Positions 24,497 through 28,647 of a stretch of 64,000 nucleotides of DNA are shown piece after piece. Positions within the stretch are counted from its first letter, which is position 1, and each line of letters begins with the position of its first letter. A program made the translations under genes and the position numbers. The notes under the pieces are model-generated. The model did no database searches and had not been told where the DNA came from. It saw only the letters and a list, made by a program, of their open reading frames with translations. The stretch covers positions 2,356,001-2,420,000 of the forward strand of contig NZ_WKJO01000001.1 in the NCBI RefSeq assembly GCF_009674605.1, written 5' to 3'. This stretch comes from Haloferax litoreum (lineage in GTDB: Archaea; Halobacteriota; Halobacteria; Halobacteriales; Haloferacaceae).

Positions 24497-25396
24497 ATGA
24501 TGACAGAGACGGTGCGCGTCGCCGTTCCGCGGAAGGGACGCCCCCTCGAAGCGGTGCTCGAACGGTTCGCTACGACCGACAGCATCGCCGAGGTGGCAGA
24601 CGAAATCATCTCGACGCTCAGGTTCGAGAAGTCCGTTACGAAGGGCCATACCCATCCGGAACGAGACGTGTACGAACGCCTCGCTGATTACAGCGACCTT
24701 TCGGACCCGACGTCTCCCGAGTATTCGCTCTTACGCGACGACCGAGAGGGCATGCCCCGTCGAATCGTCTTCGACAGCGTCGTCTTCGAAATCGACGGCG
24801 TGGACATCCATCTCGTCGGCCGCGAAGAACCATTCCGCGCCCTCCGGACCCACGAGTTCGGTCTCGGATTCGACAGCGCCGACCTCGTCCTCGAAGAAGT
24901 CGTCACACTCCAACCCGACGGCATCGGCAGTATCGAAGACGTGAACGCTCGTATCGACCCGATGGACACCGACGTTCGTGTCGTCTCCGGTCTCGGAGAT
25001 ACGGTCTACCACACGCTGATGGCCGACCCCGAGATTCTCCCTCCGGGGTCCGACCTCGACCGGGATTTCGTCGCCGACTACGCCGGTGACCTCTGTATCT
25101 CGCCGCGATACGAGCGTCTCGTCGAAGCGGTGCTCGGGACACGGTGTCTCGACGATGTCACGTTCGCGTACCCCGACGAGGGTCCCGAAGAAGAAGCCGC
25201 CATCGCAGAGACCGGTCTCGGCGTCTACCTCACGATGACTGGGTCGACTGCGCGTGAACACGGCCTCGTCCTCGGGGAACACCTCTTCCCGAGTGAGACG
25301 GTGTTGATGGAGAACGTCGCAGAGACGACAGACGCCGCCGAGACGGTCAAAGACGCTATCGAATCTCCCGAATTAGAGACCGAACTTCGGGTCTAA
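24497..25396 (+). CDS. HisG-like protein, uncharacterised
   Basis: A 299-residue protein starting MMTETVRVAVPRKGRPLEAVLE, which resembles the N-terminus of ATP phosphoribosyltransferase (HisG, typically ALPKGRL). The middle has alternating strands typical of a type II periplasmic-binding-like fold (RRIVFDSVVFEIDGVDIHLVGREE; DLVLEEVVTLQPDG). The standard HisG phosphate-binding loop is not obvious and the C-terminus is acidic, so it may be a binding-protein-like relative rather than the histidine enzyme. TATA-like CTGTTTAGCGG precedes the start by about 23 bases. Its stop overlaps the stop of the convergent lipoprotein gene by four bases. Confidence 0.6.
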   Translation: MMTETVRVAVPRKGRPLEAVLERFATTDSIAEVADEIISTLRFEKSVTKGHTHPERDVYERLADYSDLSDPTSPEYSLLRDDREGMPRRIVFDSVVFEIDGVDIHLVGREEPFRALRTHEFGLGFDSADLVLEEVVTLQPDGIGSIEDVNARIDPMDTDVRVVSGLGDTVYHTLMADPEILPPGSDLDRDFVADYAGDLCISPRYERLVEAVLGTRCLDDVTFAYPDEGPEEEAAIAETGLGVYLTMTGSTAREHGLVLGEHLFPSETVLMENVAETTDAAETVKDAIESPELETELRV

Positions 25397-26325
25397 CCCG
25401 ACGCCTCGGGCATCTCTTCACCGCAAGCCATCAGCGTCGAGAGGGTCGTGGCCTGCATGCCACCGTCGTCGTTCAGTGCGACGACTGTCGTAACCTCGTT
25501 ACAGTCGAAACTCGACGGTTCGATGGTGACCGTCTCGGACGCGTCGTTCTCGGTTCTGACGACACGAGCCACGAACTCCCGTTCCTCGGTCAGTGTCACG
25601 TCTATTCGCGCATCCGGTTCTATCTGGAACGTGCCACCGAACGCGACTGCTTCTGCGTCGTCTTCGAGACTGAGTTCGACTACGTCGGTCGACCCGGTCG
25701 GGTTCACCACCGAGAGCGTTCGTGGCTTCGTCTCCCCGTCGGGGAGCGACCTATCCCCAACTGAAACCGACAATGGTTCGTCTGCTGTGACGACCGGCGG
25801 TGAACACGCCATCCGCGTGGCCGCACCACTGACCGAGATGTCTCCTTCCTCGGGTGAAAACGTCGTCCACGACCGATTACAGTCGAAGTTGGCCGGCGTG
25901 ACGACTTCGGTCGCCGTCGCATCTGTCTCGATGTCGGTGACAGTCACTTCGTAGTCTGCGGGGAGTCTGAGGGAGAGAGAAACCTCGGCGGTGGGGTGCA
26001 GTTCGTACGTCTCGTGGTGCCCATCCCCGACGGTAGGCGCTACTCTGACTCGAACGGTCCACGGTTCGGATTCGGTGGGTGTCAGACGGACGTGGTGTGG
26101 TTTCACAGCCCCGTCGTCGGGTGAGGGGGCGTCGCCGACGACGGCCGTGAGTCGTTCGCCCGACTCGACGACGACTGCGTCGACTGGTCCGGGGGTTGGG
26201 TCCGGCGTCGGGTCGGGGGTCGGGTCGTCGTCCTCGTCCGTTCCGTCGTTCGCGCTTGCGGTACAGCCAGCGAGTGCCGCCGCGAGACCGGTACCGGTCG
26301 CGGCGAGGAAGGCTCGTCGTTGCAC
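25393..26325 (-). CDS. Tat-type lipoprotein with repeated beta domains
   Basis: A 310-residue secreted lipoprotein starting with GTG. The signal MQRRAFLAATGTGLAAALAGC ends in a lipobox Cys, followed by an acidic Pro/Thr/Asp repeat linker. Three similar segments follow, each with a Cys (ANFDCNRSWT, TRMACSPPV, SSFDCNEVTT, STLMACGEE) and motifs such as ETVTIEPSSFDCN and TKPRTLSVVNPTGS. The paired Cys suggest disulfides outside the cell. Probable surface binding protein of unknown ligand. The upstream region carries a palindrome matching one before the neighbouring regulator gene. Confidence 0.78.
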   Translation of the reverse strand: MQRRAFLAATGTGLAAALAGCTASANDGTDEDDDPTPDPTPDPTPGPVDAVVVESGERLTAVVGDAPSPDDGAVKPHHVRLTPTESEPWTVRVRVAPTVGDGHHETYELHPTAEVSLSLRLPADYEVTVTDIETDATATEVVTPANFDCNRSWTTFSPEEGDISVSGAATRMACSPPVVTADEPLSVSVGDRSLPDGETKPRTLSVVNPTGSTDVVELSLEDDAEAVAFGGTFQIEPDARIDVTLTEEREFVARVVRTENDASETVTIEPSSFDCNEVTTVVALNDDGGMQATTLSTLMACGEEMPEASG

Positions 26326-26367
26326 ACGCTCCCCGAAGAAGGGGGAGACCTTCCCCCTATGTGTAAC

Positions 26368-26383
26368 TCAAAGACGCCTTTGA
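26368..26383. promoter_or_regulatory. Palindrome TCAAAGACGCCTTTGA upstream of the lipoprotein gene
   Basis: Six-base perfect arms (eight with flanking AC and GT) around ACGC. It covers the last codons and stop of the ArsR-like gene and lies about 43 bases before the lipoprotein start. It shares TCAAA-N6-TTTGA with the site at 27023. Confidence 0.5.
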
Positions 26384-26976
26384 GTCCACACGGTAGCGAG
26401 GCTCACGGCGAGCGTCAGGAGTACGCCCACGGCGAGGACGATAGCCCCCGGTCCGTCGACGTACCCTGCGAAGAATGCGGGGGAGAAGACGTCTGGAGTT
26501 CCGGGCGTCCGCAGCACTTGCGGACGCGGTTGCTGGTTCGTCCAGACGACCTGTACCAGCACGCTCGCGACCACCGAGAGACCGACGCCGGTGACGAGGT
26601 TTCTGAGGCCGGTGGCGAGGCGTTCTGGTCGCTCCACACCCGCGAAGAGAACGACGGTGGAGTTCGTCGGACCGTACACGGTCATCTCTCGACCCTGCGC
26701 CGAGACCCAGGTCGTCACGGGTTCCACTAACTCGGCGTCGACCAATCGGTCGAGGTGGTAGCTGACGGTCTGGAGAGTCGTGTCGAGCACGTCGGCCAGC
26801 TCAGACGCGGGGCGAGGGTCGTCGTAGATTTCTGCGAGGAGGGACCGCGCAGTCGACGACGACAGTGCCGCGAGAACGTCGTCCGCCGCGGGGTCGTCGA
26901 GGGAGAGGAGGAGTGGGGCTATCTCTCGGTCGCCAAGCGATTCGGCAGCGGGTTTGAGCGGTAACAGCGAACTCAC
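26368..26976 (-). CDS. ArsR-type winged-helix regulator with membrane anchor
   Basis: A 202-residue protein starting with GTG. Residues about 30-95 form an ArsR winged helix (AALSSSTARSLLAEIYDDPRPASELADVLDTTLQTVSYHLDRLVDAELVEPV), then a wing-like segment and two hydrophobic helices (about 128-145 and 170-195). It would bind DNA in the cytoplasm while held at the membrane, a design common among haloarchaeal regulators. It lies 42 bases upstream of the lipoprotein gene on the same strand, and matching palindromes stand before both genes, suggesting autoregulation and control of the lipoprotein. Confidence 0.85.
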   Translation of the reverse strand: MSSLLPLKPAAESLGDREIAPLLLSLDDPAADDVLAALSSSTARSLLAEIYDDPRPASELADVLDTTLQTVSYHLDRLVDAELVEPVTTWVSAQGREMTVYGPTNSTVVLFAGVERPERLATGLRNLVTGVGLSVVASVLVQVVWTNQQPRPQVLRTPGTPDVFSPAFFAGYVDGPGAIVLAVGVLLTLAVSLATVWTQRRL

Positions 26977-27022
26977 GTTTCGTCCGAGAGAGTCGGTCGA
27001 TGGCTAAAGAGGCATCTAAGAG

Positions 27023-27038
27023 TCAAACGGCCGTTTGA
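27023..27038. promoter_or_regulatory. Perfect 16-base palindrome TCAAACGGCCGTTTGA
   Basis: A perfect palindrome 47 bases upstream of the GTG of the ArsR-like regulator. It shares the pattern TCAAA-N6-TTTGA and the same length with the site at 26368-26383. Likely operator of the adjacent regulator; the start of transcription is not known. Confidence 0.6.
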
Positions 27039-27161: not shown

Positions 27162-28211
27162 TCAGAGGAGTGAATAAATGTTCGATTCGTACGTCTCTCG
27201 CACTCTATCGCCCCAATTGTGGGTGTAGGTGTCGATGATGTCGCCGGCGACGTCGCCACGGAGGTACTTGACGATACCTCGGTCACCGGTCCTGTCGCGA
27301 AGGTGGGTGGTGAAGAAGTGCCTGAAGTAATGCGGTGTCACGTTCTCTTCGCGGTCACCACCCCTGCGGTACCACCCTACATCGGTGGCGTGCGAGGTGA
27401 CGATGTGGTGGACCGCATCGGGAGTCAGGCGTGTACCCCACCCCGACGACGTCCCCACGAACAGCGGTTCTGCGGGTGACTTGGAGTCCGGTCGGACCGC
27501 TAGCCAGCGGAGGAGCACCGTCTCTAACTCGTCGTCGACGGGGACGACTGTCGAGCGTTTTCGCTTGTTCGAGGCGGTACGAGTCTCGCCATTCGTGACC
27601 ATCCCGACGCTCGGTTCCGACGAGACGTATACCGACGGCCCCCGTCCATCGAGTGCTGCACGGGTCGATACACCGTCTACTGGTGTGTCGACAGAGAGTG
27701 ACAGGTCACGGACGTCGAGGTTGCACAGTTCACCGACACGCATTCCGGTCTTGAGCAGGGTGACGACGAGTGCGTGCTCCAGTGGATGGCGGATGTCACG
27801 GACGAACCCCCGCATTTGTGAGACCGAAACCTCTCTCCGGGCGGGGTTCGAGTCGATTTTCTCGTCCATCTCCTCCATCACGAGGCCCATCGGGTTGGAG
27901 TCGAACACGCCGACCTGGGCCATATAGGCGTAGAACCGGTGTAAGTAGGAGGCATAGGTCGCCACGGTACTGGGTGCGACTGCCCGGTTTCGAAGCGTGT
28001 GAATCCACGCCATACAGTCGCGATGGCTGGCGTCGTCGACGGATTTCGCAGTTCCAGTGGGGTTTCGAGAGGGGTCACCGAGGAACGTCTCGAACTCGCG
28101 GAGGACGCGTTCGTAGGCACCGCGGGTTCGGTCTGTCTTCCCGTGATAGGTCATATCCTGGAGGAAATACCCGACGGGGTCTTCCACGTCTGCCGGTCGT
28201 TCAGCGGCCAT
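27162..28211 (-). CDS. Tyrosine recombinase/integrase, XerC-like
   Basis: A 349-residue site-specific recombinase. An N-terminal SAM-like core-binding domain (about 10-115) is followed by the catalytic domain with the first Arg in TGMRVGELCNL, a beta-hairpin Lys region (ASNKRKRSTVVPV), His294-x-x-Arg297 in HYFRHFF and the nucleophile Tyr329 in DIIDTYTHNW. The usual LGH segment between them is replaced by YLRGD. It cuts and rejoins DNA through a 3'-phosphotyrosine link. It overlaps the upstream DUF5805-type gene by eleven bases, so the two are translated together. Whether it acts on a chromosomal resolution site or a mobile element is not known. Confidence 0.9.
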   Translation of the reverse strand: MAAERPADVEDPVGYFLQDMTYHGKTDRTRGAYERVLREFETFLGDPSRNPTGTAKSVDDASHRDCMAWIHTLRNRAVAPSTVATYASYLHRFYAYMAQVGVFDSNPMGLVMEEMDEKIDSNPARREVSVSQMRGFVRDIRHPLEHALVVTLLKTGMRVGELCNLDVRDLSLSVDTPVDGVSTRAALDGRGPSVYVSSEPSVGMVTNGETRTASNKRKRSTVVPVDDELETVLLRWLAVRPDSKSPAEPLFVGTSSGWGTRLTPDAVHHIVTSHATDVGWYRRGGDREENVTPHYFRHFFTTHLRDRTGDRGIVKYLRGDVAGDIIDTYTHNWGDRVRETYESNIYSLL

Positions 28212-28647
28212 CGTCCTCCGCTAAGGTGTACCCACCATGTCGCCCACTGTACACAACTCTCCCCTCTGATTGGAGGTCTTGCAGGGTCGATTCGAGGCGG
28301 TCTTCGATGTCGTCTGTGAGCGCCGAGACGAGGTCGTCCCACGACTGGTGTGATTCGGCCGTGAGTGTCTCGACGACACGGGCCGTGAGCCCATCGTTGT
28401 TTTCACCCGAAATATTATGATTTGAACTCTCGGTCTGGAGGGCCGTCTTCTCCCCCTCTACCCCCGGAGTTACGTCCGTCTCATTGCCCCTCGAAGGGAC
28501 CTCGAAATCTGCCCGACCAGCCTGTACCATCGTCCTGACAAATTCACTCTGACTCATGTCGAGTCGGTCGGCGTGGGCCTTCCAAATCTCCTTCTGGTGG
28601 GTGGGGACGTAGGTCTGGACTGTCGCCCGGTCGTCCTCGTCGCTCAT
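28201..28647 (-). CDS. DUF5805-like protein coupled to the recombinase
   Basis: A 148-residue protein. Residues 1-50 (VQTYVPTHQKEIWKAHADRLDMSQSEFVRTMVQAGRADF) resemble a ribbon-helix-helix DNA-binding domain. A polar linker of mixed composition follows, then a helical C-terminal domain (LTARVVETLTAESHQSWDDLVSALTDDIEDRLESTLQDLQSEGRVVYSGRHGGYTL) resembling a small winged helix. It runs into the integrase gene by eleven bases and probably acts with it, either as accessory DNA-bending factor or as regulator. Upstream lies AT-rich DNA. Confidence 0.75.
   Translation of the reverse strand: MSDEDDRATVQTYVPTHQKEIWKAHADRLDMSQSEFVRTMVQAGRADFEVPSRGNETDVTPGVEGEKTALQTESSNHNISGENNDGLTARVVETLTAESHQSWDDLVSALTDDIEDRLESTLQDLQSEGRVVYSGRHGGYTLAEDDGR

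Follow-up and report, generated by a model that had tools for sequence, protein, structure and literature searches.

The window analysed here, i.e. the whole stretch of 64,000 nt from Haloferax litoreum (GCF_009674605.1, contig NZ_WKJO01000001.1, positions 2,356,001–2,420,000, forward strand), contains two exact matches to the palindromic frame TCAAA-N6-TTTGA, compared with 0.01 expected from dinucleotide shuffles, and tolerating one mismatch adds nothing beyond the same two 16-mers. An earlier note on this DNA had described two such 16-base palindromes, one before a lipoprotein gene and the other before a regulator gene, and we find both present and so placed (Table 1). The downstream genes lie on the minus strand, with start codons 42 bp (lipoprotein) and 46 bp (regulator) from the palindrome edge or, counting from the far edge of each 16-mer, 58 and 62 nt away, respectively. 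Site 1 also overlaps the end of the regulator gene, as had been claimed: its first bases are the complement of the TGA stop codon, and the last codons are covered.

Table 1. Genes and putative control elements at the locus, with the unlinked third site
Feature	Position	Strand	Description
Operator 2 (putative), TCAAACGGCCGTTTGA	27023..27038	none	Precedes regulator promoter; conserved at -57 to -65 in 28 orthologues
Putative TATA box of regulator, CTTTAGCC	27002..27009	minus	A/T-only columns 16–17 nt after the palindrome in orthologues
Regulator gene	26368..26976	minus	ArsR-fold winged helix (~29–111); membrane helices (~121–147, 176–200)
Operator 1 (putative), 20-bp palindrome ACTCAAAGACGCCTTTGAGT	26366..26385 (16-mer 26368–26383)	none	Precedes lipoprotein; conserved at -57 to -60 in 28 orthologues
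Lipoprotein gene	25393..26325	minus	Tat signal and lipobox; two beta-sandwich domains, with one conserved cysteine pair in each
Third exact site	Genome C1:1225494–1225509 = L001:3495–3510		63 nt before BGTF gene (L001:2911–3447); unlinked

The regulator matches Pfam HTH_20 (2.5e-14; 53.4 bits against a cut-off of 27), and Foldseek matches of its winged helix have the ArsR fold (PH1932, SmtB, and CzrA). Two C-terminal membrane helices joined by a short loop are predicted from hydropathy and from an AlphaFold model of moderate confidence in this part of the protein. This is the combination of winged helix and membrane helices proposed in the note. A predicted DNA-binding domain and a transmembrane region in one protein are two features of a transmembrane transcription regulator; the third, control of transcription from the membrane, is suggested here by the conserved sites. 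The label "ArsR-type" is accurate for the fold and not beyond it. Specifically, the fold is shared with ArsR/SmtB metalloregulators but, unlike these, the regulator is membrane-anchored, has no cysteine among its 202 residues, and scores 33.7 bits with NCBIfam HTH_metalloreg, below the cut-off of 55. The lack of cysteine means that this is no metal sensor of the usual kind, and ArsR-kind metal sensing is rejected on this ground. Upstream of the regulator (27162–28647) lie genes for a tyrosine recombinase (Phage_integrase) and a DUF5805 protein; because the recombinase is also found upstream in several other Haloferax loci, its presence looks like a case of fixed synteny and not of recent insertion.

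In the lipoprotein, the RR motif and the lipobox cysteine (R3, R4, G20, and C21) are invariant across the 25 sequences of alignment A3. Each beta-sandwich domain has its own cysteine pair (C149/C174 and C275/C301), and AlphaFold pLDDT exceeds 90 across most of both. Sequence comparison of this protein with PDB returned nothing useful, and Foldseek gave generic beta-sandwich matches only, with low TM-scores.

Conservation of the sites and promoter geometry

The genome-wide search for the motif that the note had suggested returns three exact copies in 3.56 Mb, all of them promoter-proximal, while a reversed control motif has none (both counts are from pattern searches). All three copies sit 58–63 nt before start codons, i.e. 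those of the regulator, the Tat-lipoprotein, and an unlinked gene whose short product carries a BGTF surface domain (NF045517; 82.2 bits against a cut-off of 40). Judged by eye from the sequence, and not from a match above cut-off, the tail of this third protein resembles a PGF-CTERM anchor. All eight closely similar Haloferax copies of the gene that were examined retain the site; the genomes without the regulator (G003, G005, and G011) have no close BGTF copy, and two genomes with the regulator (G001 and G013) have distant BGTF relatives only.

Comparison of orthologous loci, also proposed earlier, covered 28 regulator–lipoprotein pairs from eleven genera (Haloferax, Natrinema, Halorubrum, Halorhabdus, Halomicrobium, Salinarchaeum, Halobacterium, Haloprofundus, Halobellus, Halovenus, and Natrialba). 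The sites are kept in every pair examined: the lipoprotein-side site retains 9–10 of the 10 fixed bases, and the regulator-side site retains 8–10, with decay to 8 in 3 of the 28 pairs; H. elongans and H. larsenii have such weakened sites (8 of 10). Neither this conservation nor the genomic placement gives the refuting outcome named in the note. Positions scoring at least 9/10 are rare in these loci (58 of 229,539), and most of them are the sites themselves. The lipoprotein site lies anywhere between -13 and +145 from the regulator stop codon, whereas its distance to the lipoprotein start stays constant, which argues that the site is part of the downstream promoter. Coding constraint is rejected as the reason for site 1, because in the genera other than Haloferax it is mostly found in intergenic DNA and because lipoprotein copies unlinked to the regulator retain it. 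These unlinked homologues occur in G142 (contig C2; site at -58) and G007 (contig C3; site at -57), with no member of the regulator family within ~3–5 kb and the regulator on another contig.

Strong matches to the regulator (at least 150 bits) and to the lipoprotein (at least 50 bits) are found in an identical set of genomes, 16 of 147. Twelve of the 16 belong to one genus, the other four representing four genera, so that the nominal value of 1e-21 for this co-occurrence overstates independence.

Downstream of the palindrome, positions 16–17 are 96–100% A/T in the promoters of regulator, lipoprotein, BGTF, and paralogue-associated genes, which places a TATA region at a fixed phase after the palindrome; no clear TATA box is seen in the lipoprotein promoter of Haloferax. 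In cases from the TrmB family, activation goes with sites placed upstream of BRE/TATA and repression with sites placed downstream (PMC4158304, PMC9426492). With this precedent, the upstream position of the palindromes favours, and does not prove, a predicted role of the regulator as an activator rather than a repressor. The motif deletions made for OxsR at hvo_1043 similarly span -50 to -74, beside an upstream stop codon (PMC9426492, PMC4158304). OxsR and the other TrmB-family regulators thus resemble the present case in having sites upstream of BRE/TATA, linked there to activation, but they belong to a different family, are not described as membrane-bound, and have CG-rich or other motifs.

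A predicted envelope regulon and its alternatives

The reading we prefer, with a probability of about 0.72, is that the palindromes are operators of a membrane-tethered one-component regulator, which most likely activates itself, the Tat-lipoprotein, and the unlinked BGTF gene. Its cytosolic ArsR-fold winged helices would dimerise while held at the membrane by the two helices, and the dimer would bind TCAAA-N6-TTTGA ~16 nt upstream of the TATA region. Once bound, it would most likely aid TBP/TFB at its own promoter and at those of the Tat-lipoprotein and the BGTF surface protein, in response to an envelope signal supplied perhaps by the lipoprotein, by the short loop on the outer side, or by the membrane as such. 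We infer the direct binding, the dimerisation, the activation, and the signal. The autoregulated unit of membrane-held winged-helix regulator and exported lipoprotein suggested in the earlier note is, at the level of sequence, supported by the fixed spacing, the cross-genus conservation, the co-occurrence, the lipobox, and the two membrane helices. The predicted regulon would extend past that two-gene unit, to the third, unlinked BGTF target and to the lipoprotein copies that have the site away from the regulator.

The sign of control could be the reverse. Autorepression is common among winged-helix regulators and every site closely precedes its own gene, both of which fit a repressor of itself and its targets that an envelope signal releases. 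The palindromes stop short of BRE/TATA and of the start site, however, at a constant phase upstream of TATA, and such placement accompanies activation in the TrmB-family cases; we thus regard repression as unlikely, though it is the strongest of the competing readings. It is less likely still that the operators are real and serve chiefly a paralogous membrane winged-helix regulator instead of the neighbouring gene product. Paralogous membrane regulators do bear related palindromes close to their own genes, and the exact palindrome stands at -57 before a second lipoprotein family (MSLTRRTFLGS...) in Haloferax genomes with and without the regulator. In the regulator-lacking Haloferax G003 and G011, a similar site precedes a lipoprotein family other than the one at this locus, and this, with the paralogue sites, suggests that another family member may act here; since paralogues have similar sites, we also infer the assignment of factor to site. 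On the other hand, regulator and lipoprotein co-occur exactly, the regulator's own promoter has the site throughout, and the Haloferax paralogue L157 has a TAAAA variant instead.

A role of the palindromes as RNA hairpins or terminators, and not as DNA operators, appears highly improbable. Site 1 does sit on the regulator's stop codon, and its RNA can fold (-15.2 kcal/mol for a 35-nt segment that includes flanks), but its spacing is constant to the downstream start and not to the upstream stop, the minimum-energy RNA fold of site 2 lacks the hairpin, unlinked copies have no regulator gene upstream, and the A/T step follows the palindrome at a fixed distance. Chance can be given next to no weight: base composition predicts ~0.5 exact copies per genome against the 3 found, but the pair falls within 0.7 kb with fixed spacing and is conserved across genera, and its conservation in 28 orthologous pairs refutes this explanation.

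Known systems and paralogous regulators

Transmembrane transcription regulators are widespread, archaea included (Demey et al. 2023, PMC10269533). The regulator described here resembles them in combining a DNA-binding domain with membrane helices in a single protein, with regulation predicted to occur from the membrane; it differs in that comparison of loci here defines an operator, a promoter spacing, and likely targets, and the excerpted text of that account names neither Haloferax nor ArsR types. ArnR and ArnR1 of Sulfolobus acidocaldarius are membrane-bound one-component regulators with an N-terminal helix-turn-helix that activate surface-structure genes (PMC6396743). The likeness to these archaeal proteins is one of architecture only: they come from another lineage and target the archaellum and pili, and the excerpts of that paper describe no lipoprotein partner. 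In the open-licence papers searched, neither the motif nor the regulator–lipoprotein pair had been reported before, and no envelope-sensing transcription circuit was described for haloarchaea. Transmembrane transcription regulators are known; the conserved palindromes point to an archaeal circuit, undescribed in those papers, that would control cell-envelope parts. Archaeal membrane-tethered regulators for which sites and targets are defined are few, and an operator with fixed promoter geometry and named candidate targets makes membrane-based archaeal gene regulation directly testable in laboratory strains of Haloferax; H. gibbonsii and H. denitrificans carry the regulator.

Members of the regulator family probably share an operator preference. 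One set of paralogous membrane regulators with Thr-rich outer loops (L225:1575–1900, at ~770074–770400 of genome C1, and also L108–L156) has the variant palindrome TNAAA-N6-TTTNA at or just past the stop codon, followed by a TATA-like run and then by a conserved, apparently non-coding C-rich stretch (GGCCCTCC, GTTCCCGCTGATTCTT) that precedes a convergent metallophosphoesterase-like gene. This C-rich stretch is a candidate small RNA; Rfam gave no match around the paralogous regulators. We tentatively consider that membrane-embedded winged-helix regulators sharing a TCAAA-N6-TTTGA-type operator may form a haloarchaeal envelope-surveillance network, in which one branch would control lipoproteins and BGTF proteins, the lipoprotein acting as an outer co-sensor, and a sister branch would drive the conserved C-rich small RNA encoded beside the regulator gene.

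The second lipoprotein family is found at seven loci (L212, L218, L219, L229, L234, L235, and L232), the site in L232 being at -51 to the first possible start, and the regulator-lacking G003 has one exact site without a clear target gene (L227). Another paralogous membrane regulator (L226:1312–3824, contig C2) adjoins a convergent BGTF surface-domain gene, and a near match to the site, TCAAACACACGCTTGA, lies 64 nt ahead of the regulator start. Lastly, a distant regulator with 37% identity (L026:1471–2082) stands before an unrelated lipoprotein, and variant palindromes, TTAAACGGGTGTTTTA and TAAAACGACTCTTGAA, lie ahead of the regulator and lipoprotein genes at this locus.
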